Notes: generated by a model not told the origin, from the letters alone. A stretch of DNA of 41,155 nt from Thermoanaerobaculia bacterium (GCA_030429235.1 JAUIDB010000033.1:1-41155); one strand, 5' to 3'. Numbered from the stretch's first letter, positions 6,692 to 18,915 are shown. A program made the numbers and translations.

Positions 6692-8422
6692 TCATCGGTC
6701 GGAGGGCTTGGTGGGGGCTCGATCCTTGGTCGTCGCGAGATCGTCGTAGCGCAGGGTGTGGTAGCGGTCGATCGCGAGGCGCGGCGAACTCTGTCGGCGG
6801 CCGTTGGGCCACGTGATGTCGACTCGGACCGATTCTTGGCTCTGGCCGAGTCCAAAGTGGACTCTGAGGTCTGACTGGGACTGGAAGCTCCCGCCGCTTC
6901 GCACGCCCCGGGTTTGTTTCGAGGTGCCGTTCTGTAGGGTCACGACAGCGCCCAGAGCCAGACGATTCTCGGCTGGACCCACCAGCGACAGGCCCAACCA
7001 GTGATTCTTGGTTTCGATCCGATTCTCGAGGAGGTCGACCCGATCGTTGGTGTTGCTGATCACCACGTCTAGACGACCGTCGTTGTTCCAGTCTCCAACC
7101 GCCAAGCCGCGGCTGACGGCATGGGTTTGCCAGGCCGCCCCAGCCTGGGGCGAGACCTCCACGAAGCGCCCCGCTCCGAGGTTCTCGAAGAGCTGGTTCG
7201 GCTGAGGGTACTTCAGGCGCGGCTCGAGTTGCTCGATCCCCTCTTGCATGTGTCCATTGGCCACGGCGAGGTCCAGGTCACCGTCATTGTCGAAGTCGAA
7301 GAGTTCTACGCCCCAACCTACGTATTCGAGACTCGGTGGACCCAGACCAGAGGTTTCGGTGACGTCTTCGAACTGGAGGTCGCCGAGGTTGGTGTACAGA
7401 GTGTTCGTTTCCATGGAGAAGTGAGTGACCACCAGGTCGGGAAGGAGGTCGCCGTTCAGATCTCCGACCGCTATTCCCATCCCGGCTTCCGGGACTCCCA
7501 GTGCGCTCAAGCCGGCGCCGCTCCAGAGACCCACGTCTTCGAACCGGGCGGATCCGTCGTTTTCGTACAGTCGGTTCTGCGAGCCGTCGTTGGCCGCGTA
7601 GATGTCCAGATCCCCGTCGAGGTCGAAGTCGACCAGGGAGACTCCGAACCCTCGTTCGGTAGCCGCAGTAGACACTCCGCGTTCTTTCCCTGCCTCTATG
7701 AAGGTGCCGTTGCCTTGATTGAGGTAGAGGGCATCGGGCACCCCGTCGAAGTTCTCGGGGCGGCAGTAGTAGCGGGTCTTCGCGGAGGGGTCGCCGCAGG
7801 GCGCCGGATCTGCGTAGTCGAAGTCCACGTAGCGCGTGACGTAGAGATCGTGATCTCCATCGCCGTCCAGGTCTCCGAAGGCGCAGCTCGAACTCCAGCC
7901 CGATCCCGCAACTCCGGCCGGACCCGCGACCTCCAGGAACGATCGGCCGCCCTGGTTGAGATAGAGGCGGTCGGGACCGTAGTTGGTGACGAATAGATCG
8001 ATCCATCCGTCGCCGTTGGCGTCTCCGGCGCAGACTCCCATGCCAAACGCCGCGTCGTCGACTCCCAGAGGGCTCGCAACGTCCACGAATTTGCCGCCCC
8101 GATTCTCGAACAGGGCGTTGCGGGGAGTTGGGGTGAGTTCGATACCGGGGGCAGGCGAGCCGTTGACGAGGTAGAGGTCGAGGTCGTCATCCTGGTCGAA
8201 GTCGATCCAAGCGACACCGCTGGCCGCCGTCTCCACGTAGTGCTTTTCACCGGTCCGGCCATCCTGGTGCAAGAAGGTCAGTCCGACGGGATCGGTCACC
8301 CGCACGAACCAGTCCTGGGCAGTCGTGGAGGTGGGGGTGAAGAGCACGAGGAGCGCAACCAGGATCGATCTGTGGTTGGCGCTTCCCGCACTTGGTTTCG
8401 GTAGCGGGGGAGAGTCGCTCAC
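6692..8422 (-). CDS. Secreted CRTAC1-like protein with FG-GAP/VCBS repeats and ASPIC/UnbV domain
   Basis: A 576-residue exported protein of the CRTAC1 type. The start is GTG at 8422, which overlaps the stop of the upstream TPR gene by 4 nt and has an AAGGAAG ribosome-binding site 8 nt before it; a longer reading frame to 8557 is rejected. A hydrophobic segment at residues ~19-35 followed by Ala-Gln fits a signal peptide. Seven Asp-rich calcium-binding loops of FG-GAP/VCBS type are visible (for example DANGDGWIDLFV, DLDGDGDHDLYV, DFDNDGDLDLAV), predicting a seven-bladed beta-propeller. The C-terminal ~100 residues, from NHWLGLSLVG through VRSGGSFQSQSD to VDITWPNGRRQ, are an ASPIC/UnbV domain. 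Family members are thought to bind ligands or matrix at the cell surface; no enzymatic activity can be assigned. Confidence 0.88.
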   Translation of the reverse strand: MSDSPPLPKPSAGSANHRSILVALLVLFTPTSTTAQDWFVRVTDPVGLTFLHQDGRTGEKHYVETAASGVAWIDFDQDDDLDLYLVNGSPAPGIELTPTPRNALFENRGGKFVDVASPLGVDDAAFGMGVCAGDANGDGWIDLFVTNYGPDRLYLNQGGRSFLEVAGPAGVAGSGWSSSCAFGDLDGDGDHDLYVTRYVDFDYADPAPCGDPSAKTRYYCRPENFDGVPDALYLNQGNGTFIEAGKERGVSTAATERGFGVSLVDFDLDGDLDIYAANDGSQNRLYENDGSARFEDVGLWSGAGLSALGVPEAGMGIAVGDLNGDLLPDLVVTHFSMETNTLYTNLGDLQFEDVTETSGLGPPSLEYVGWGVELFDFDNDGDLDLAVANGHMQEGIEQLEPRLKYPQPNQLFENLGAGRFVEVSPQAGAAWQTHAVSRGLAVGDWNNDGRLDVVISNTNDRVDLLENRIETKNHWLGLSLVGPAENRLALGAVVTLQNGTSKQTRGVRSGGSFQSQSDLRVHFGLGQSQESVRVDITWPNGRRQSSPRLAIDRYHTLRYDDLATTKDRAPTKPSDR

Positions 8423-9801
8423 AGTTGGTACTTCCTTCGGAGCTGGTCGAGGAGTGGACTCTCCCGGGGAGCGGCGTCGAGTAGACCCGCTACCTCGTCG
8501 ATCTGGCCGTTGGCGACGAGAAGCTCGGCTAGGCGGACGCGGTCGCGATCGCGCCAAGGCGCTATCTCCAACAGCTGTTGCAGACTGGAGCGAGCGGCTT
8601 CTGGATCACCGAGATGGAGTTCCAGTTGGGCCCTGGCGGCCAGGAGGATCGAGCCGTCCGGGAACTCTCCGAGACCCTCCTGGACCAGAGCATAGGCGGC
8701 GTCATGGTCGAGATTCCTCATCGCCTGTGAGACTCGTTCCTCCCGCACTCGTTGTCGCAGGCGTCGTCGCCGTAGCTGGGCTGACAGATGCTCGGAGACC
8801 GGAAGCTCGAGAACGGTGGCGAAGCAGGCTTTTGCGAGTTCATCGAGAGCAGACCGGGACGCCAGTCGTCCTACGAGCAGCGTCTGTTCGGGGCTCAGAT
8901 CGGTCCGATCGATCGCTTCTAGCTGGTCCCGAGCCTCGCTGGTCCGGTCCGTGAGCGTCAGCAGTTCAGCCAGGCGGAGCTGAACCGAGGTGGAGGCAAC
9001 TGTCGTCTTCGATGCGAGTTCACGTACCAGGGGTAGCGCCTCCGAGGGAGAAGGCGCGCTCTTGCTTCCGCTGCCCTCGAGGTCGGAGAGGAGCTGGTGC
9101 CGAGCCATGAGATCTTTCGCCTGCTCGACATCGCCGGTGGCGCGGTAGAGGCGGGCCGCCAGGTAGGTCGTGGTTCGATCGAACGGATCGAGTCGAAGCG
9201 CCCGGCGAGCGAAGTCGAGGGCTCGCTCTGGCTCGGTAGTTCGGAAGAGTCGCACGGCGAGCGCGAGGCCGATCTGGTCTTCGGGATCGAGTCGAAGCCA
9301 GCGGTCCAGGAGCTCACGCGCTTGGTCTGGGTTTGCCGATTCGACGATGAGGGCCCGGGCTCGGAGAGTCCGAGGGCTCTCGGGGGCCTCATCGATCAGG
9401 GTCAACGCGGCGCCGGTGTCGTGTAGCACCCGAAGGTTGCCGACCAGATTCAGGCGTGCTTCGAGGTCGTCGGGATGACGTGACAGGTAGGTTTGGAGAT
9501 GCTCGGCGGCTTGCGAGGGGCTCTGGAGGGGACCGGCTCGCCAGGCTTCCGCAACCGCGAGGCGACCAGTATCGGAGTTCGGCTCTAGGTCGAGATGGCG
9601 CTGGAGGTAGTCTCGGGAGAGTAGGTACTCCTGCTCGTCGAAAGCGTTGAGACCACGAACGAGATCGGTGGGTTCGTCCGGCGGCTGACACCCGTTGAGA
9701 AAGAGGAGACCGAGGCAAGACAGCGCCCCGAGCTTCGTGCGGTAGAACCGTCTGGTTTCCTGGCAAGCCGAGTCCAGAACAGCTTGTGGTTCGATGGGCA
9801 C
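8419..9801 (-). CDS. TPR-repeat lipoprotein
   Basis: A 460-residue protein of TPR-type helical repeats spanning roughly residues 45-455, a scaffold fold for protein-protein contacts. The N-terminus has a hydrophobic stretch ending in a lipobox, LFLNGC (Cys38), preceded by an unusually long n-region, so lipidation and envelope anchoring are likely. Repeats include the pairs around LDPEDQIGLALAVRLFR and LDPFDRTTTYLAARLYR. The start is GTG 9801; no upstream ribosome-binding site is obvious. The stop overlaps the start of the FG-GAP/UnbV gene by 4 nt, so both are probably made together. It is divergent from the sulfatase-fold gene across about 82 nt. Confidence 0.85.
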   Translation of the reverse strand: MPIEPQAVLDSACQETRRFYRTKLGALSCLGLLFLNGCQPPDEPTDLVRGLNAFDEQEYLLSRDYLQRHLDLEPNSDTGRLAVAEAWRAGPLQSPSQAAEHLQTYLSRHPDDLEARLNLVGNLRVLHDTGAALTLIDEAPESPRTLRARALIVESANPDQARELLDRWLRLDPEDQIGLALAVRLFRTTEPERALDFARRALRLDPFDRTTTYLAARLYRATGDVEQAKDLMARHQLLSDLEGSGSKSAPSPSEALPLVRELASKTTVASTSVQLRLAELLTLTDRTSEARDQLEAIDRTDLSPEQTLLVGRLASRSALDELAKACFATVLELPVSEHLSAQLRRRRLRQRVREERVSQAMRNLDHDAAYALVQEGLGEFPDGSILLAARAQLELHLGDPEAARSSLQQLLEIAPWRDRDRVRLAELLVANGQIDEVAGLLDAAPRESPLLDQLRRKYQL

Positions 9802-9847
9802 TTTCGGTTTGGTCGGCTCGAGGGACTCGGGGGATTAGGCAGTGGGT

Positions 9848-9876
9848 TTGACGACGGGTGGGTCCTGCGGGACAAT
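9848..9876 (+). promoter_or_regulatory. Sigma-70-like promoter of the sulfatase-fold/PpiC operon
   Basis: TTGACG at 9848-9853 and GACAAT at 9871-9876 are separated by exactly 17 nt, matching a housekeeping promoter at 5/6 and 5/6 positions. The -10 ends 7 nt before the in-frame TTG at 9884, so the predicted transcription start is at or next to that codon, implying a leaderless message. If used, this promoter excludes the upstream start candidates GTG 9842 and ATG 9875. Confidence 0.55.
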
Positions 9877-9883
9877 GCGGGCC

Positions 9884-12076
9884 TTGAGGCACTATTCTAC
9901 CCTTCTCTCGTCTCGCTGTGGCCCCATTTCTCGTCGCGTTCTGATCCTCGCCGTCCTGGTTGGATTGGTCGGGGGAGGCTGTTCTCGATCGCAGCCGTGG
10001 AACGTCTTGTTGGTCACTTTCGACACGACTCGGGCGGACCGTCTCGGTGTCTACGGCAACGATTCGATCGCTACGCCGACCGTAGATCGGTTAGCGGCGG
10101 AGGGGGTCCGCTTCGCCCAGGCCCGCTCGGCAGTTCCGATCACGGCTCCCTCTCATTCGACGATTCTGACCGGGGTCTATCCGGTTCTTCATGGAGTCCG
10201 AGACAACGGCTTGTTCGTGTTGCCTGCGGCCCAGACGACACTGGCCGAGATTCTCGGCCAGCAGGGCTACGCTACGGCGGCCGCGATCGGCTCCTTTCCC
10301 CTCACTTCTCAGTTCGGCCTCGATCAGGGTTTCGACTACTTCGACGATGAGGTCGACGTACAACCGTTCGAAGACCTCCTGGCCCAGCGGGCACTTCCCA
10401 AGTCTGCGCTCTTTTTCGACGAGCGACGGGCGGGACGGGTGAACGAGGCTTTGCTTCCCTGGCTGACCGAGCACGCCGGGGAACCGTTCTTCGCTTGGGC
10501 ACACTACTTCGATCCGCATCAGCCCCTGGAGCCTCCGGCTCCGTTCGACCAGCTGTACGCCGACGATCTGTACGACGGAGAGATTGCCTACTCGGACGAT
10601 TCGCTCGGCCGGCTCCTCGACCACCTGCGGGGACTTGGGGTTCTGGATCGGACCCTGGTGATCCTGACGGCAGATCATGGCGAGGGGTTGAACGAGCACC
10701 GGGAGTCGACCCACTCCATGTTGCTCTACGACTCGACGCTCCATGTCCCGTTGATCCTTCGTCCCCCCGACTACCCCTATGGCGGCCGTGTCGTGGATGA
10801 GTTCGTGGGTACCGTCGACATCGTGCCGACCGTCCTCGACCTCCTGGGAGTCTCCTCGGACCTGGAGTTTCAGGGGCGTAGCCTCGAACCGTGGTTCTCG
10901 GCGCGATCCTTGGAGGCCGTAGGGCCTTCGTCGCCGCGGTCGCTCTACTCCGAGACACTGTCGCCGCGGCTCTCGCACCGTTGGGGGGAGCTTAGGGCGC
11001 TCATCGACCGTCCGTACAAGTTTGTGCACGGCCCGAGACCCGAACTCTTCGATCTCGAGAAGGACCCTCGTGAACTCCACAATCTGATCGACGAGCAAGC
11101 CGCGCTGGCCAGGGAACTCGAGAACCGCTTGGTTCGGTTTCTACGCAACGAGGCGGCACCAGACCCGGGAGCGGCGACCGAAGCCGACGAGGAGACGCTG
11201 TCGCGGCTCCGGGCCCTGGGCTATATCCACTCCACCGGGCCGCAGGACGTAGTGGTGGAGGAACGCCTTCGGTCGGATGGCTTGGCCCCGCAAGATCGGG
11301 TGGTCGACGTTACAGCCATGAGCAACGCCAAAGAGGCGCTGCATCAGCGTCGGCCACTGTCGGCGCTGCAGTTCTTGGAACCGTTGCTGGCGGCAACGCC
11401 GGACGATCCGGTGTACCTCGAGATGCGAGCTTCGGCGGAGGTGCAGATGGAACAGCTCGAGGCGGCGAGTGCGACCCTGGACCTCATTCGCCAGATCGGT
11501 GGCGAAGGACCCGTGACCGCCCGGCTTCTCGAGCAGATGGGCGCTCTCGCTCTGTATCGCGGAGACCTGGCGCAAGCCGAACGCTGGCTTACCCAGGCCG
11601 AAGAACTCGGTGCCAGTGCCAACGGACAACACTTCTTGGCGCACGTTTATGCAGCCCAGGGGATGATGGTCGAGCAGGAGCGCGCGCTGACGGCGGTGCT
11701 CGAACTCGACCCTGGTTTCGTGACGGCTCGACTAGATCTCGCGATTCTCCGTGCCCGACAGGGAGACAGAGCAGAGGCCAAGAGACACTTCGACCAGGCG
11801 CTCGAGGACCAGCCATACTTCCCTCGCACCCACTACAACCTGGGGACCTTCTGGATCGAAGCGGGTGAACTCTCGGCGGCGGAGGGGCGTTTCCAGCGAG
11901 CGGTGGAGCTAGACCCGAACTACCGCCAGGCCCGGTACGCACTCGTGGCCCTCTACGCCAGCACACCGGGCCGGGAGGCCGAAGCCGAGTACCATCGGCT
12001 CGAATTGCAACGCCGCCATCCAGGGTCGGCCGAAGCGACAGAGGCCAACGCGTTGCTGGCCGGGAGTTCCTCGTGA
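9884..12076 (+). CDS. Sulfatase/alkaline-phosphatase-fold hydrolase fused to TPR repeats, membrane-anchored
   Basis: About 730 residues from TTG 9884 (alternatives ATG 9875, GTG 9842). A hydrophobic segment (residues ~18-31) ends in VGGGC; the lipobox is imperfect, so lipidation at Cys33 is possible but not certain. The N-terminal ~430 residues are a sulfatase-type alkaline phosphatase superfamily domain: metal-binding FDTTRAD (about residues 46-52), a nucleophile region ITAPSHSTILTG, and ILTADHGEGLNEH. The nucleophile position is Thr87 within TAPSH, not the Cys or Ser of CxPxR, so formylglycine maturation is not expected; Thr is the nucleophile in LtaS-type phosphoglycerol transferases. The C-terminal ~220 residues are TPR repeats ending in LDPNYRQARYALVALY. 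Substrate unknown. The stop overlaps the first PpiC gene by 4 nt. Confidence 0.85.
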   Translation: MRHYSTLLSSRCGPISRRVLILAVLVGLVGGGCSRSQPWNVLLVTFDTTRADRLGVYGNDSIATPTVDRLAAEGVRFAQARSAVPITAPSHSTILTGVYPVLHGVRDNGLFVLPAAQTTLAEILGQQGYATAAAIGSFPLTSQFGLDQGFDYFDDEVDVQPFEDLLAQRALPKSALFFDERRAGRVNEALLPWLTEHAGEPFFAWAHYFDPHQPLEPPAPFDQLYADDLYDGEIAYSDDSLGRLLDHLRGLGVLDRTLVILTADHGEGLNEHRESTHSMLLYDSTLHVPLILRPPDYPYGGRVVDEFVGTVDIVPTVLDLLGVSSDLEFQGRSLEPWFSARSLEAVGPSSPRSLYSETLSPRLSHRWGELRALIDRPYKFVHGPRPELFDLEKDPRELHNLIDEQAALARELENRLVRFLRNEAAPDPGAATEADEETLSRLRALGYIHSTGPQDVVVEERLRSDGLAPQDRVVDVTAMSNAKEALHQRRPLSALQFLEPLLAATPDDPVYLEMRASAEVQMEQLEAASATLDLIRQIGGEGPVTARLLEQMGALALYRGDLAQAERWLTQAEELGASANGQHFLAHVYAAQGMMVEQERALTAVLELDPGFVTARLDLAILRARQGDRAEAKRHFDQALEDQPYFPRTHYNLGTFWIEAGELSAAEGRFQRAVELDPNYRQARYALVALYASTPGREAEAEYHRLELQRRHPGSAEATEANALLAGSSS

Positions 12077-13812
12077 AGCGCCGGCTTCGGTGGCTTGCCG
12101 GCCTCGCCGTCGTGGGGTCGATGATCGCGTGCGCCGATTCGGAGACTCCCGCCGAGAGTGTTGCGGTGACTGACGAAAGTACCGACGCTAGCGAGGTGCT
12201 GGCCAAGTACGACGGAGGCCAGGTAACCGCGGAGGACCTCGATCGAGCGATTCTGGAACTGCCACCCGAGTCGCGCGAGGTTCCGGGGGATCGAACCGCA
12301 TGGTACGAGGGCCTGATCCGAACTCTGGCGTTGGATCAGATCGAAGGGGATCGGATACAGGTTCTCCTCGATCAGGACGGAGAGCTAAAGGAGCTTCTGC
12401 GTGACGCCGAGAAAGGGGTCCTCATCGAGGAGTGGGCCCGTCGACAGAGCCTCGAGATCGACCCGGTATCCGAGGATGAACTCCGTGCCTACTACCAAGA
12501 GCATCAAGAGGTCTACCAGATTCCCGATCGTCGTTCGGTCTCCCACATCTTTCTCCGAGCGGATCGGCGCTCGGCGGGGGAAATCCAGCAGCGGTTGCAC
12601 CAGATCCGTGAGAGGATCCTGCAAGGGGAGAGTTTCGAAACTCTGGTAGCGGAGGTGTCCGAATCGGAGACACGGCACCGGTCAGGTCTGCTCGGGAGTC
12701 TGGGGCGTGGTGACCTGCCGCAGGACTTGGAGAAGGTGATCTTCGAGCTCGAGGTCGGGACTCCCAGTGAACCCGTGCTGACCCCACAGGGAGGGCATCT
12801 CTTCATCGTAATGAACAGTGTCCAGGCTCGGGACTACTCCTTCGAGGAAGTGCGGCCGGCGATGCAGCGCCAGATGATGTTCGAACGACGGGAGGCCGCG
12901 CTCGAAGAACTGACCCGGTCGTTGCCTCTGCCACCCGATTTGGAGCGGGTCAGTTCGGAATCGCTCGAGGCTCTGATTTCGCAAGGGGATCCGTCGGAGA
13001 TCGTACTGGAGGTTGGCCAGGAATCGACGTCGTTGGGAAGGCTGATGGAGTTCGCGAATCTGGCCGCAGTGGCCAGGAATGTACCGCCGAACCCAGTCCA
13101 GGCCCTCGACCTACTCGAACGCCAGGAGCGGATTCTGGCCAGGGCTCTCGAAGATGGCATCGACCAGCTTCCCGAGGTGGCGCAAAGACTGCGGTCGGTC
13201 CGATGGCGGGTAGCCCGAGAGAAGGTCCACTCCAGTCGCCGTGAGGCCATCCTGGATCGGGACCCAGATCGGCTGCGGGCGTACTACGAGGAGCACCAGT
13301 TGGCTTTCCGTACCCCTTTGAGCCTGCGTCTCCGCCGGTTGTCTATTCCCTTTGCGCGTGACGGGGTAGCGAGCCTGATGGCTGAACTGGAGACGGCAGT
13401 AGCCTCGCAACCGGAGTCCCTCGAGGATCTCCTAGACCGATTCGAAGGGTCCATCGACGATGTGGGTTGGCTGGAGCTGTCGCAACAGCTGACCGAGGCT
13501 GAGAGGCGGCTCGCGGCGGTACTGGCTCCCCTCGAAGCGGGACAGCTGTCGCCTCCGCGACGCTTTGGCGAGGCGCTGGAGGTGTACCGTGTCTTGGACC
13601 GCAGGGAACCCCGAGATCAACCCTACGAAGTCGTGAGCGAGACGGTTCGAGAGGTCTACCTATTGCAGCACTCGGCAGAGCTACAGGCGGAATGGACCGA
13701 GCGACGACTGTCCGATCAGAACTTTCGGCTGGTGGAAGGGTGGCAGGAGCGAGTTGGCGTCGACCGGACGTCGGCAGGGAGCGAGACTTCGCTGCAGCGG
13801 GAGGTGCCGTGA
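12073..13812 (+). CDS. PpiC/SurA-like peptidyl-prolyl isomerase lipoprotein, first of tandem pair
   Basis: A 579-residue envelope protein with a signal peptide ending in the lipobox-like SMIAC (Cys20). A SurA-type N-terminal helical region (about residues 40-150, including DELRAYYQEHQEVYQ) precedes a recognisable parvulin domain at about residues 153-250 (VSHIFLR, GESFETLVAEVSES, GLLGSLGRGDLP). A second, more divergent parvulin-like segment follows at about residues 413-515, after another DRLRAYYEEHQLAF helix. Such proteins act as periplasmic chaperones or prolyl isomerases for outer-membrane or secreted proteins. GTG 12073 overlaps the sulfatase-fold stop by 4 nt (GTGA), and the next paralogue overlaps its end the same way. 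Confidence 0.88.
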   Translation: MKRRLRWLAGLAVVGSMIACADSETPAESVAVTDESTDASEVLAKYDGGQVTAEDLDRAILELPPESREVPGDRTAWYEGLIRTLALDQIEGDRIQVLLDQDGELKELLRDAEKGVLIEEWARRQSLEIDPVSEDELRAYYQEHQEVYQIPDRRSVSHIFLRADRRSAGEIQQRLHQIRERILQGESFETLVAEVSESETRHRSGLLGSLGRGDLPQDLEKVIFELEVGTPSEPVLTPQGGHLFIVMNSVQARDYSFEEVRPAMQRQMMFERREAALEELTRSLPLPPDLERVSSESLEALISQGDPSEIVLEVGQESTSLGRLMEFANLAAVARNVPPNPVQALDLLERQERILARALEDGIDQLPEVAQRLRSVRWRVAREKVHSSRREAILDRDPDRLRAYYEEHQLAFRTPLSLRLRRLSIPFARDGVASLMAELETAVASQPESLEDLLDRFEGSIDDVGWLELSQQLTEAERRLAAVLAPLEAGQLSPPRRFGEALEVYRVLDRREPRDQPYEVVSETVREVYLLQHSAELQAEWTERRLSDQNFRLVEGWQERVGVDRTSAGSETSLQREVP

Positions 13813-15488
13813 GACGAGTTCTAGGGGGGCTCCTGTTGGGAGTCCTGGTGGGTTGTTCTGCTCCTCCGGCTTCCCAGACTCACGATCCGATCGTGGCCCG
13901 TTTCGATGGCGGATCGGTTGGTTTGCAGGAGTTTCGAGATTGGCGGCGGTCACAGGGAGAGACTGACTTCGAGGTCACGTCGAGGCGAGTAGAAGACCTA
14001 CTCTTGGTCCGGCTACTCGCACAGGCCGGGGAAGAGGGCGGGCTTCGCGAGGAGGCGAGAGTCAGGTTGCGCCTCGCAGCGATCGAACGTCAGCTGTGGG
14101 TTGCCGCCCTGCGTCGGCACGTCGCCGACCAGACCGTGGTGTTGCCAGAGGAGATCGAGCAGGCTCTCGCTGAGGAGCCGGACGCCTTCCAGAAACCCCG
14201 TCGCCAGCGGGTCCGTAACCTCTTTCTGCGTGTCCCGGCTACCGCCAGTGCCGCGGAGCGCGCCGAGGTAGGCCAGGTGATGCTGGGGCTCCGAGAGCAG
14301 GTGGTGGCCGGGGAGTCCTTTGCGGCACTGGCTCGGGAGCATTCCGATTCCCAGACTCGGTTCAAGGGAGGGCTGCTCGGTGTAGTCAAACCGGGGGAAC
14401 TACCGCCTCCGGTCGAACCCCTCGTGCTTCCGCTCGAGCCGGGCGAGGTGAGCAGCATCCTCGAGACGACTGACGGCTTCACGATCTTCTATTGCGAGAC
14501 CGTGTGGCCCGCTGAGTCCCGACCACCAGACGAGGTGCGCACGAAGATCGAGTCGGTCCTCCGCCAGCATCGTCAGAAGCAGAGATGGCAAGAACTGGTC
14601 GACGAGTTGCTGGAAGAGGATCCTCCGCAGTTCGATCTCGACTTCGAGATGGCACCCGGCCAGGAGCCCGAGCGTCGAGTTCTCTACTTCGACGATGAAG
14701 GGCTCTCGGTCGGCGAGCTCCGCACCATGCTGCGACTCGGACCCGCTCCCAGAGACCTCGAGTCGATGTCGTTGGGACTCGTACGGGAGGTCCTCGAGAA
14801 TTACGTCGTCCAGGTGCGGGCCAGTCGTCGGGCCCAGGAGCTCGGCCTCTCCATCGACGAGGGTTTGCTGCGCTGGCGCTGGCACAGCGTGTTCGCCGCC
14901 GAAGAGATGGCGAGACGGGTCGACGCACAGCTGGTTCGACCGACAGAGAGCGAGTTGCGAGAGGCTTTTGGGGCCGATCGAGAGCGCTACCGACGCCCGG
15001 CCCACTACGACCTGTCGCTTCTCAGAATTGCCTACGAAGCGGGTGGAGAGCGGCAAGCGATGCAGCGCGCTCTCGAAGCGGAAGAGATGATACGAGGCGG
15101 TCGTCTGTCGTTCGAGGCGGCGGTGCGTCGCTACGCACCCTCGCAAACCTCGGACCCAAGGACCGGCTGGGTCGCGCGACGCCGAGTGGCCGCCCTGGGG
15201 CACTCGGTGCTGGCAGCAGTGGAAGAGCTCAGTCCCGGTGAACTGAGCCCTCCCGTGGTCGACGGCAATCGGCTCTATCTCCTGTTCCTCCATGGAGTCG
15301 AGGAGCCTCGGGCCCTGAGCTTCGAAGAAGCTCGTTCGGCAGTCGAGCGCTCGGTAGGTGGCAATCGAGTCGAGACCCTGCAGAACGAGATCAGCAAATC
15401 GCTCCGCCAACGGCTGCGGGTAACCGTTCTCGATCCTGGCTCCTCGACGAGTGACGATACTCTCAGTCCAGCGGTCGACCCGAGGTAG
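13809..15488 (+). CDS. PpiC/SurA-like peptidyl-prolyl isomerase lipoprotein, second of tandem pair
   Basis: A 559-residue paralogue of the preceding gene with the same plan: signal peptide with lipobox LVGC (Cys16), N-terminal helical region, a parvulin domain at about residues 131-234 (VRNLFLRVP, GESFAALAREHSDS, GGLLGVVKPGELP) and a second parvulin-like segment at about residues 397-497 (LSLLRIAYE, GRLSFEAAVRRYAPS, GWVARRRV). The start is GTG 13809, overlapping the previous stop by 4 nt; longer in-frame starts inside the upstream gene lack support. It ends the operon; the 505 nt downstream contain no recognisable gene. Probably a periplasmic folding factor, perhaps dedicated to the neighbouring secreted proteins (inference). 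Confidence 0.87.
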   Translation: MRRVLGGLLLGVLVGCSAPPASQTHDPIVARFDGGSVGLQEFRDWRRSQGETDFEVTSRRVEDLLLVRLLAQAGEEGGLREEARVRLRLAAIERQLWVAALRRHVADQTVVLPEEIEQALAEEPDAFQKPRRQRVRNLFLRVPATASAAERAEVGQVMLGLREQVVAGESFAALAREHSDSQTRFKGGLLGVVKPGELPPPVEPLVLPLEPGEVSSILETTDGFTIFYCETVWPAESRPPDEVRTKIESVLRQHRQKQRWQELVDELLEEDPPQFDLDFEMAPGQEPERRVLYFDDEGLSVGELRTMLRLGPAPRDLESMSLGLVREVLENYVVQVRASRRAQELGLSIDEGLLRWRWHSVFAAEEMARRVDAQLVRPTESELREAFGADRERYRRPAHYDLSLLRIAYEAGGERQAMQRALEAEEMIRGGRLSFEAAVRRYAPSQTSDPRTGWVARRRVAALGHSVLAAVEELSPGELSPPVVDGNRLYLLFLHGVEEPRALSFEEARSAVERSVGGNRVETLQNEISKSLRQRLRVTVLDPGSSTSDDTLSPAVDPR

Positions 15489-15993
15489 TCGACGAGCGAT
15501 TCAAGGACCGTTACCCAGTGTGGTCGGCAACCGGAGAGTGCTCCCGGTGGGAGCGTGGAGGGGAAGCAAGGATGCGACCGGCCGGGATCGAGTGCGGAGC
15601 CGCAGGCTAGAGCTAACCCTCCCTTGGATAGGACTGGTCTCGGCGGCCGTGTGTGAGGTCACCAAGGATTTGATCAGCAGCTGGTGAGTAGCCCCCGGAC
15701 CGAAGGATCCCTCGTCGACTCCACTCGGTAGCGGGAATCTCGGCCTCGCCTGGGGACGGATAGCTCCTCCGAAGGCCAGCCCAGCGATCTCGTCGACGAA
15801 GCCGCGGCGTGTGGCTAGCGCACCGACGACGGGTCTGGCCCGATCAGGGCTCAAGCGTTCCGAATCGCACCAGAGTCGCGCCCGAGACGAAGACCCCGCC
15901 TGTGCCTGGAATGCCTGCCTCCCGAGATCGATCTTGCGCCATAAGAAAAGGGGCGCCGAAGCGCCCCTCTTCTTATGGTCAGAGACCTGAGCC
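15489..15993. other. 505-nt stretch without a gene
   Basis: No credible coding region, tRNA or repeat was found. It contains a weak hairpin CTCCC-ggt-GGGAG near 15543-15555, without a following T-run, and the strong terminator at 15941-15976. A minus-strand reading frame crossing it (15501-16025) runs through the terminator and into the DUF11 gene and shows no domain or start signal. It separates two convergent units. Confidence 0.6.
15941..15976 (-). terminator. Strong intrinsic terminator, usable in both directions
   Basis: Read on the minus strand, a perfect GGGGCGC-TTCG-GCGCCCC hairpin is followed by TTTTCTTAT and preceded by the complementary ATAAGAAGA, giving a stem of about 16 bp with one G-T wobble. 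It begins 18 nt past the stop of the DUF11 gene, so it terminates that gene. The plus-strand reading also has a T-rich 3' side, so it may stop read-through from the PpiC operon as well. Confidence 0.9.
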
Positions 15994-17175
15994 CTAGCTC
16001 TTCGTGCGCAGCGCGACGAAGGCAAGTCCGGCTAGAAGAGCCGAGAGCAGAAGCATCCCCTTCCAGCCGAGGACCGGGACCTCGATCACGGTCGGTAGGC
16101 TATCCACCACCGAGGTGCTTTCGCTGGCACTGTCGTTGCTGGGGTTGGAGTCGCTGCCGTTGCTCGCCGTGACCGCAGCCATGCTGGAGATCACGTCGGC
16201 GCCTGGAGTCGTCGTGCCGTCGACGGTCAAGGTTACGGTCAGAGTTGGGCTATCGGCGGTTGCGACACTACCCACCGTCCAGACCGGGTCGACGTAGGCA
16301 CCGGCGCTGGGCACGACGGAATCCACGGTGACCCCGGGCGGGAGGGTGAGGGTCTCGGTCACCTCGACGCCGGTTGCGGTGTCGGGGCCGGCGTTGGTGA
16401 GAGTAGCGGTGTACACGAGGTTGCCAGCGCCAGACCCGGCGACGACCGGATCGGTGGACTCGGTTACCGTGAGGCCGAGATCGATCAACTCGGCGGGCAT
16501 TCCGAGCACGTCACCGGATACGCGGACCAACGCATTGAGTCCGGGCAGCGTGTTGAAACCCGTGCCCACGATGTCGTTGATATGCATTCCGTGGTGGCCC
16601 TGGCTGGCATTGGTACCGGATCCGAGACCAACGGCATCGGCGCCAGGGGGGAGAATGTTGGCCCAAACTCCTGCCAGGAAACTCGCGCCGGTGTAGTTCA
16701 CGGGCGTGGCAAAGGTGTGGGTGTTGAAGGCGGAGGCAGCGAGTCCCGGGACCGAAACTGAGGTCAGGACCGGTGCCGTGGTGCCAGCGACGGGGCCGAA
16801 CACCGAGACGAAGGCGGCAGTCCCGCCGACACTATTCATGAAGAAGGACATCGCGGTGACCGAGCCGCTCGCCATGACCGGGCTGCCGTTGGCCGTATCG
16901 AACTGGTTACCGAAGCAGTTGCTCGCGACGTTCGGTAGCGAACTCACGATGCCGTCGTCGTACTGAATGGTGCCGAGAGCTCTCGGAGTGTGGTTGGTGA
17001 CGATCGGTTCGTCGAGGGTCCGAGTGGCCGGACCCACGCCGTTCCAGGGCAGGTTCGGGCCTTCGATGGCGGCTTTGGCATCTTGCGCCGCTTGGTCCGC
17101 GAGCACGGTGGTTGGCATTGCGACCACCAGCACGAGGAGAGCGAGGCTCAATCTAATAACGACGTTTCTTGGCAC
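15994..17175 (-). CDS. Secreted DUF11-domain protein with IPTL-CTERM-like sorting tail
   Basis: A 393-residue exported protein. Residues 1-26 form a typical signal peptide. Residues ~30-230 are a Gly/Ala/Ser/Thr-rich domain of unknown type. Residues ~232-350 form a DUF11 (Ig-like) domain with the signature TATLTNAGPDTATGVEVTETL. The C-terminus (365-393) has VPVLGWKG, a ~16-residue hydrophobic helix and a short basic end, the layout of IPTL-CTERM/PEP-CTERM surface-sorting tails, although the usual PTL is PVL here. It starts with GTG 17175, with a GGAGGA ribosome-binding site 8 nt upstream. It is a single gene with its own terminator. It is probably a surface or matrix protein released by a rhomboid- or exosortase-like protease encoded elsewhere. 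Confidence 0.85.
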   Translation of the reverse strand: MPRNVVIRLSLALLVLVVAMPTTVLADQAAQDAKAAIEGPNLPWNGVGPATRTLDEPIVTNHTPRALGTIQYDDGIVSSLPNVASNCFGNQFDTANGSPVMASGSVTAMSFFMNSVGGTAAFVSVFGPVAGTTAPVLTSVSVPGLAASAFNTHTFATPVNYTGASFLAGVWANILPPGADAVGLGSGTNASQGHHGMHINDIVGTGFNTLPGLNALVRVSGDVLGMPAELIDLGLTVTESTDPVVAGSGAGNLVYTATLTNAGPDTATGVEVTETLTLPPGVTVDSVVPSAGAYVDPVWTVGSVATADSPTLTVTLTVDGTTTPGADVISSMAAVTASNGSDSNPSNDSASESTSVVDSLPTVIEVPVLGWKGMLLLSALLAGLAFVALRTKS

Positions 17176-17457: not shown

Positions 17458-18915
17458 GTGCGTATAGCGTTCCTCAAGCCGCCGATTGGAGGCATCCTCG
17501 GGCTCGAGATGTTGACGTTTGTCGAGCCCCTGGGACCGGTCTGTGTTGCGGGGGCCCTCGAGCCCGAGGGACATGAGTGCCGGATCTTCGACCTTCGGAT
17601 CGACGGGGTCGAGGAGGGGCTGGCGGCCTGTCGAGCGTTCAGTCCTCGACTCATCGGGCTGCAGTGCAACTTCACCACCGAGCGCTACCGCACGCTCGGG
17701 CTGTCGCGGCGGCTCCGCGAACTGCTCCCAGAAGCATTCATCGTCGTGGGGGGGCACGACGCGTCGCGTGAGCCCGACTGGTTCCACGACGCCTCGATCG
17801 ACGCCATCGCGATCGGCGATGGTGAGGAGGTGATGCCCCCGTTGGCGGCGCTCCTCGAGGCGGGCGAGGATCCGGCGCAGGCGACGGGTCTCCATCTACG
17901 GCGGGACGACGGGTTCGAGTTCACGGGTCCCCCTCCTGCCCGCAGCGACCTCGATTCACTGCCACTTCCGGCGCGCCATCTGATCTCGCACTACGCGCCG
18001 CACTACTACATCAACTTCCGCCGGCCGCTGGCTCTCTTCGAGACCGCCCGGGGGTGCCCCTTCAAGTGCAACTTCTGCTCGGTCTGGAAGTTCCACGAGA
18101 GTACCTTCCGCGAGAAGTCGCCGGAGCGGGTGGTGGCGGAACTGAAGACGATCGACGCTCCCAACGTCTTCATCACCGACGACATCTTCTGGATGAACGT
18201 CAAGCGGGGCGAGGAGATGGCGCGCCAAATCAAGGCGGCCGGGATTCGCAAGTACTTCACGGTGCAGACCCGCACCGACATCATCTGCAAGTTCCCGCAC
18301 CTCATCGAGATGTGGAAGGAGTGCGGCGACCTGGCGATCTTCCTGGGCCTCGAAGCGGTCACCGACGAAGGCCTCGACCTGGTGAACAAGAAGAACACCG
18401 CGGCCAACAACGAGCAGGCGATCGAGATCCTCAAAGAACTCGGGGTCGGATTCACGCCGAATTTCATCGTCGACCCGGCCTGGGACCGCGAGGATTTCGT
18501 GCGGCTCAAGGAGTGGATCACCCGCACCGGTGCCTACAACAGCGGCTTCAGCGTGCTGACCCCCCTTCCCGGTACCGATCTCTGGGAGGCGGCGAGCCGC
18601 AACGTGACCACCGACAACTGGGAGATGTTCGACATCATCCACGCGGTGATCCCGACCACGCTACCGCTCGAAGAGTTCTACGACGAGTACGCCGGACTCT
18701 GGCGCCACGTGCTCGACCTGCGCTTCCAGATCAAGGGCAAGACCAAGACCTACGTCCAACTGGCCGCCGCCCTCGCCCTGGGGAGGGTCAAGTGGTCGTC
18801 GATCCAGAAGGGGATGAATATGGCGAAGGTCTTCAGCCGGCCCGAGACCTTCCTGGCGGCGCACGACCGACCGACGCCGACCGTGAGCCCATCACTGAGC
18901 GCCACGGGCCTCTGA
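17458..18915 (+). CDS. B12-binding-domain radical SAM protein, hopanoid C-3 methylase (HpnR)-like
   Basis: A 485-residue enzyme. The N-terminal ~150 residues look like a cobalamin-binding Rossmann domain (start MRIAFLKPPIGG; VVGGHDAS; IGDGEE). The radical SAM core has the 4Fe-4S motif C200-x3-C204-x2-C207 in RGCPFKCNFCSVWKFHEST, followed by ITDDIFWMN and TPLPGTDLWE. By recollection of the family, the CSVWKFH and EKSPERVV stretches resemble HpnR, which methylates hopanoids at C-3; another B12-dependent methylase or cyclase cannot be excluded. GTG 17458 has a GGGAGAG ribosome-binding site. The gene stands alone between the DUF11 gene (divergent) and leucine dehydrogenase (convergent), with no hopanoid gene in the window. 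Confidence 0.8.
   Translation: MRIAFLKPPIGGILGLEMLTFVEPLGPVCVAGALEPEGHECRIFDLRIDGVEEGLAACRAFSPRLIGLQCNFTTERYRTLGLSRRLRELLPEAFIVVGGHDASREPDWFHDASIDAIAIGDGEEVMPPLAALLEAGEDPAQATGLHLRRDDGFEFTGPPPARSDLDSLPLPARHLISHYAPHYYINFRRPLALFETARGCPFKCNFCSVWKFHESTFREKSPERVVAELKTIDAPNVFITDDIFWMNVKRGEEMARQIKAAGIRKYFTVQTRTDIICKFPHLIEMWKECGDLAIFLGLEAVTDEGLDLVNKKNTAANNEQAIEILKELGVGFTPNFIVDPAWDREDFVRLKEWITRTGAYNSGFSVLTPLPGTDLWEAASRNVTTDNWEMFDIIHAVIPTTLPLEEFYDEYAGLWRHVLDLRFQIKGKTKTYVQLAAALALGRVKWSSIQKGMNMAKVFSRPETFLAAHDRPTPTVSPSLSATGL

Follow-up and report, generated by a model that had tools for sequence, protein, structure and literature searches.

A recurrent gene set of sulfatase-fold and parvulin lipoproteins suggests an undescribed pathway for tagged surface proteins in Thermoanaerobaculia and other bacteria

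Several described bacterial systems deal with exported proteins that carry a signal at their C-terminus. In the type IX secretion system (T9SS) of Bacteroidota, varied exported proteins bear a C-terminal signal, the C-terminal domain (CTD), that is not a transmembrane (TM) segment, and in the PEP-CTERM/exosortase system (EpsH/XrtA, with PrsT and an EpsD-type PpiC protein) unrelated exported proteins share a C-terminal tag. The MYXO-CTERM/myxosortase tag is described as tripartite with an invariant Cys (PMC11980579). Here we analyze one entire 41,155-base contig (the window) of a Thermoanaerobaculia bacterium (GCA_030429235.1, JAUIDB010000033.1; host genome of 4.85 Mb in 92 contigs), which contains clustered genes for a sulfatase-fold lipoprotein (SULF), two double-parvulin lipoproteins (PPI1 and PPI2), a TPR lipoprotein (TPRL) and an FG-GAP/UnbV propeller. 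This gene set, which we call the cassette, recurs in at least two phyla together with secreted proteins that end in PVELMxFx[VI][ED], and we take this to suggest a hitherto undescribed pathway in which tagged proteins are handled or displayed at the cell surface.

The PVELM tag resembles PEP-CTERM in being shared by unrelated exported proteins. However, in all 56 tagged proteins collected the last tag residue is E or D, followed by no more than one further residue, and the tag has neither the TM helix nor the basic end of PEP-CTERM. PEP-CTERM/exosortase loci likewise combine a TPR lipoprotein with a PpiC protein, but the PrsT and EpsD profile hits obtained here (TIGR02917, 7e-17; TIGR02925, 3e-10) are weak and far below the curated cut-offs, a likeness in kinds of parts only. 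Exosortase (PF09721) is absent from G398 and G421, both of which have tag and cassette; it is present in the host genome (G000), G014 and G022, but outside the window. With T9SS the tag has in common that the signal is not a TM segment; it is 10 residues long, whereas the CTD is folded, and SprA (PF14349) was detected in none of five cassette genomes (G000, G014, G022, G398 and G421) while it was found in the Bacteroidota control G631. MYXO-CTERM is similar as a phylum-wide C-terminal surface-sorting tag, from which the PVELM tag differs in having no Cys and no TM segment. On the best reading, the system lies outside the known kinds and has no homology to the exosortase, T9SS and sortase machineries, although every part comes from a known superfamily. 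Nothing on the system turned up in literature searches for the tag, for the cassette genes or for ASPIC/UnbV proteins of bacteria; few subscription papers were within their scope, and a prior description is possible.

We searched 40 relatives with PPI1 and annotated the neighbourhoods using profiles built here; the loci were gathered mainly by PPI1 homology, gene calls were mechanical, and most genomes appear to be drafts in many contigs. SULF adjoins PPI1 in 39 of the 45 PPI1 loci, immediately upstream or overlapping, mostly by 4 nt. A protein that carries the tag or belongs to A1, a family of secreted proteins of 180–320 amino acids (aa) found in most PPI1 loci and with members that usually end exactly in the tag, lies within 10 kb of PPI1 in 35/45 loci, PPI2 in 29/45 and any FG-GAP protein in 26/45; several of the missing neighbours are contig ends. 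Neither A1 nor the tag has a model in Pfam or NCBIfam. Pairwise distances of PPI1 correlate with those of SULF (r = 0.83) and PPI2 (r = 0.82), values as high being reached in none of 1000 permutations.

A reading of the window made earlier from its DNA (the sequence-only reading) had proposed a dedicated, possibly undescribed envelope system, to be checked by looking for all five families in the same order in other genomes. A dedicated and probably undescribed system is borne out, as nine genomes, from two phyla, hold all five families together (L170 and L052 being one locus in this count). By contrast, 78 control loci centred on SULF homologues of other origin contained no PPI, A1 or tagged protein and a single FG-GAP protein. 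The divergent layout itself turned up in just two places, the window and its same-genus relative G001 (L012). Other arrangements include a six-gene run on one strand, client-PPI2-SULF-PPI1-TPRL-FG-GAP (L047), and minimal loci with only SULF, PPI1 and tailed proteins (L132 and L133). A TPRL homologue is coupled to the FG-GAP gene in L012, L014, L024, L048 and L158, and at five loci with no PPI gene nearby (L034, L036, L041, L142 and L162) FG-GAP/UnbV and TPR genes also neighbour tailed proteins. A small TPR lipoprotein is encoded in 10 of the 45 PPI1 loci and a spermine-synthase-like membrane protein in 12. The latter are polytopic proteins of ~1020 aa with a spermine/spermidine synthase domain, encoded for instance at L014:4255-7302, L013:2266-5355 and L029:4930-7989.

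The tag was searched for as a DNA pattern of the tail plus stop codon, with the reversed pattern as control; 13 of the 40 relatives were matched by the former and none by the latter. Once their tails are removed, the 56 tailed proteins fall into 27 clusters without detectable similarity. They include proteins with lamin-tail (LTD), DUF5122 propeller, PMP-repeat or choice-of-anchor J parts, and by a simple hydropathy test the N-terminus of nearly all is hydrophobic and resembles a signal peptide. The pattern required P, V, E, L and F, while M, V/I at position 9 and the exact C-terminal end were not forced; these features were present in 39/56, 48/56 and, as an exact end at the acidic residue, 53/56 proteins. 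The tail is common to unrelated exported proteins and is probably a signal. A derivation from PVELxxF motifs that lie internally in Bacteroidota proteins looks unlikely, since a test gave just four pattern hits, which came from a single genome of the four. Many large exported proteins of the cassette-bearing genomes end in a different recurrent motif, approximately DGFESGDTSAWSxxxP, which is possibly another tag (L012:7755-10433, L033:11378-13114, L038:13135-14601, L039:1-1395, L042:5898-7058 and L036:324-2012).

Among 396 genomes of the window's phylum, nine have the tag, nine have full-length PPI1 and eight have both, with no match to the reversed pattern; the hypergeometric probability for tag and PPI1 is 6e-15, a figure that ignores relatedness. 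The tag pattern was derived from loci of one order, and more independent cases are G200, which belongs to a different family within the class, and G230 and G398, which belong to a different class; in G200 and G398 the tail adjoins core genes. Beyond the phylum sample, 11 genomes were reached via a SULF homologue, of which only the gammaproteobacterium G421 (Xanthomonadaceae DHS20C11) has tags (three) and it alone has the whole set, with overlapping SULF-PPI1-PPI2 genes and TPRL-FG-GAP (L052). A sample of 200 genomes of its order yielded nine with full-length PPI1, four with the exact tail and three with both. Most of the remaining PPI1 genomes of that order encode, beside PPI1, A1 proteins with variant tails (PVELIEYGVE, PVELIEYDVQ), and PPI1 loci there also adjoin an A1 protein ending in PVELMNFDIE. 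Tail and cassette are associated by linkage, a shared tail, co-occurrence in distant lineages and residue conservation, and we consider a functional link between them quite likely.

In the alkaline-phosphatase superfamily, a nucleophilic Thr together with Asp-His metal ligands is the mark of enzymes that transfer phosphoryl groups, EptA and LtaS among them, and rules out formylglycine-dependent sulfatase chemistry. In all 37 linked SULF copies T90, D50, H215, D267 and H268 are invariant, T90 being the predicted nucleophile and D50, D267 and H268 the putative metal ligands. The motif T-x-P-S/A-H stands where sulfatases have C-x-P-S-R, so SULF is not a formylglycine-dependent type I sulfatase; among unlinked SULF homologues, 79/116 have Cys at the nucleophile position. 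Because Thr occupies this position in 37/37 linked copies, SULF should transfer phosphoryl groups rather than remove sulfate, as a putative Thr-nucleophile phosphotransferase or phosphodiesterase. This argues for narrowing the earlier proposal, sulfate or phosphate esters, to the phosphate side. SULF is similar to EptA and LtaS in the predicted Thr nucleophile, the Asp-His ligands (D267-H268) and the alkaline-phosphatase superfamily. Unlike them, it has its best matches among soluble sulfatase/phosphonate hydrolase chains and is a lipoprotein (lipobox Cys in 35 of 37 linked copies) with TPRs; the EptA and LtaS profiles score far below cut-off on it.

PPI1 and PPI2 share fold and sequence family with SurA, PEB4, HP0175 and PrsA. 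The PPI1 model is confident (predicted local distance difference test, pLDDT, 86) and consists of a duplicated chaperone-parvulin unit; its Foldseek neighbours are PEB4, HP0175, PrsA and SurA, its profile match to PEB4 is 4e-19 and its lipobox Cys is conserved in 16/16. Chaperone helices and a parvulin domain in an exported protein, as in SurA/PEB4-type chaperones, are therefore predicted by model, fold search, profile and lipobox. In contrast to those proteins, PPI1 and PPI2 have the unit duplicated in tandem, are lipoproteins, have an altered parvulin pocket and are tied to a sulfatase-fold enzyme. The pocket of a catalytically competent parvulin peptidyl-prolyl isomerase, with Met, Phe and two His, is not preserved. 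Scored in the first parvulin domain only, PPI2 has Met and Phe in 0/34 and no His at either site, and PPI1 has Met in 3/43, Phe in 17/43 and the His residues in 35/43 and 31/43. Since PPI2 has lost all these residues and PPI1 mostly lacks Met, both are more likely to be chaperones than isomerases. The sequence-only view that the PpiC pair matures the propeller finds no support; in PPI2 the pocket residues are lost in 34 of 34 copies.

On balance we lean towards a pathway in which the tag directs exported proteins, by way of the cassette, to maturation or to display at the surface. Client proteins would exit via Sec, as their signal peptides indicate, and the periplasmic PPI1/PPI2 lipoprotein pair would hold them, probably recognizing the exposed tag. 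SULF, the sole clear enzyme of the minimal core (SULF, PPI1 and a tagged protein), would carry out Thr-dependent phosphoryl transfer, by which the client or its receptor may gain a phospho-linked group or have one trimmed. FG-GAP/UnbV propellers and TPR lipoproteins could form the docking or display end, joined in some lineages by the membrane spermine-synthase-like protein. Tail recognition, phosphoryl transfer and docking are thus the biochemistry that we infer around the observed association. A more specific form of this pathway, in which the PVELM-type tag and its dedicated machinery make up a maturation or display route unrelated to sortases, exosortases and T9SS and clients presented by the chaperones receive a phospho-linked group or anchor from SULF, is put forward tentatively, and covalent modification of clients by SULF is itself possible rather than probable. 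If true, this would identify both a tag and the machinery of a surface-protein pathway for bacteria that are poorly represented in culture; clients could be predicted from the tag in any genome, and SULF would put the sulfatase fold to use on proteins.

Several observations weigh against a tag-directed pathway. No protease or transpeptidase homologue was recognized among the cassette genes, so nothing in them points to the tag being cleaved or anchored; 24 of 61 tagged proteins are near neither PPI nor FG-GAP genes; and the linked client of the window itself has no terminal tag. In G400 and G607 the tag is present although PPI1 has no full-length match there, and G007 has PPI1 (at a contig end) but no exact tag. 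Relatedness makes the co-occurrence statistic look stronger than it is, and PPI1 homology was the route to most loci. Tag and cassette might simply be common in the same lineages or lifestyles without interacting, which would fit the finding that most positive genomes of the window's phylum belong to one order and that several tagged proteins are unlinked. We regard this as improbable in view of the direct adjacency in distant lineages (G200, G398, G421, G439 and G543), the parallel distances of PPI1 and SULF, and the absence of the tag from 10 genomes that have only a SULF homologue.

If the tag were an address for PPI1/PPI2 holdases delivering proteins to the outer membrane or surface, SULF could instead have a phospho-glycan or lipid of the envelope as its substrate, leaving the client free of covalent modification. 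The resemblance of PPI1 to PEB4-like chaperones, the disordered, accessible tail of the client model and the degraded, holdase-like pocket of PPI2 speak for such a private chaperone line, but it leaves unexplained why SULF, with an invariant active site, is the most constant and usually overlapping neighbour of PPI1, and we think it unlikely. The sequence-only reading had the PpiC pair maturing the FG-GAP propeller within a complex held by TPR proteins, which would make the tailed proteins incidental. The 26 loci with FG-GAP proteins and the overlap of TPRL and FG-GAP genes in the window and relatives are in its favour; the PVELM-tailed or A1 secreted protein, however, is the steadier partner (35/45 vs 26/45) and the minimal loci have no FG-GAP gene, so the propeller as client is wrong or incomplete and the model as a whole very unlikely. 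The tail could also be the last strand of a common domain, since in A1 it comes directly after a conserved jelly roll. This is largely refuted and scarcely credible: the tail is common to the 27 dissimilar clusters, and in the A1 client model (mean pLDDT 64, moderate) the jelly roll spans residues 63-221 while the tail, at 224-233, is outside the fold and disordered (pLDDT <50). Foldseek by itself returned no strong fold match for the A1 client; VIA-align matched its jelly roll to a lectin-like domain, that of Cwp84 (Z 13.2), which we read as a likeness of fold only.

In the window, the five open reading frames (ORFs) of the divergent locus were found where the sequence-only reading had placed them, with the same domains (Table 1); the two double-parvulin proteins match Pfam Rotamase_2/Rotamase. 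Its 4-nt overlaps at all within-arm junctions were recovered once starts were refined: TPRL and the FG-GAP gene overlap at 8419-8422, with a GTG start of the latter at 8422, SULF and PPI1 at 12073-12076, and PPI1 and PPI2 at 13809-13812, PPI2 starting at 13809 and not at 13692. SULF probably starts at the ATG at 9875 rather than at 9842; the divergent gap, put earlier at ~80 nt, exists and is narrower. One promoter-like match there (9848-9876) is weak evidence. Export signals, claimed for all five products, were found on each, the FG-GAP protein having an ordinary signal peptide and PPI2 the lipobox LVGC.

Table 1. Features of the locus in the window.
Feature	Position	Strand	Basis or remark
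FG-GAP/UnbV (CRTAC1-like) exported beta-propeller	6692-8422 (ORF to 8557)	-	Pfam FG-GAP_3 9e-50, UnbV_ASPIC 7e-18
TPRL (TPR lipoprotein)	8419-9801	-	Pfam TPR_19 1e-21; lipobox ..FLNGC
Divergent intergenic region	9802-9874		40 nt if SULF start is 9842, 73 nt if 9875
SULF, sulfatase/alkaline-phosphatase-fold lipoprotein with C-terminal TPRs	9875-12076 (ORF from 9842)	+	Pfam Sulfatase 5e-46 and TPR
Codon of predicted nucleophile Thr90 (TxPSH replacing CxPSR)	10142-10144	+	Linked-copy alignment
PPI1, lipoprotein, two PEB4/SurA-like chaperone-parvulin units	12073-13812	+	Pfam Rotamase_2 x2
PPI2, second double-parvulin lipoprotein	13809-15488 (ORF from 13692)	+	Pfam Rotamase_2 x2; GTG start
Long terminator-like hairpin	15937-15979		Between convergent PPI2 and sixth gene; CATAAGAAAAGGGGCGCCGAAGCGCCCCTCTTCTTATG
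Sixth gene: A1-family region, then DUF11, then IPTL-CTERM-like C-terminal TM tail	15994-17175	-	A1 alignment; profile match 5e-76
Degenerate internal tag copy MPAELIDLGL	16471-16500	-	Site where relatives end PVELMxFxVE

The convergent sixth gene, which the sequence-only reading missed, is part of the same conserved neighbourhood, and the hairpin is likely a terminator that it shares with PPI2. Its IPTL-CTERM match is weak (E 0.04). The same-genus genome G001 (L151) has an orthologue with identical last residues, also convergent with PPI2. Under a tag-directed pathway, the linked client of the window would have exchanged its terminal tag for a DUF11 domain and a membrane anchor, and the locus would serve this protein together with tagged clients encoded elsewhere in the host genome (C2, C23, C26, C41 and C45). 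Away from the window, the host genome encodes an exosortase-family protein (G000:C6:119269-119697; PF09721, 2e-10), which might process the IPTL-CTERM-like tail of the DUF11 protein.

Further along the window, positions 17458-18915 (+) encode a B12-binding radical SAM protein that resembles the hopanoid C-3 methylase HpnR (304 bits against a cut-off of 650). In L035, three tandem related genes of ~172 aa (MSEPF..E.R.....NFAPRG; 10585-12184) lie beside a SULF-PPI1-tail locus, and by eye they look like the phage tail collar type family.

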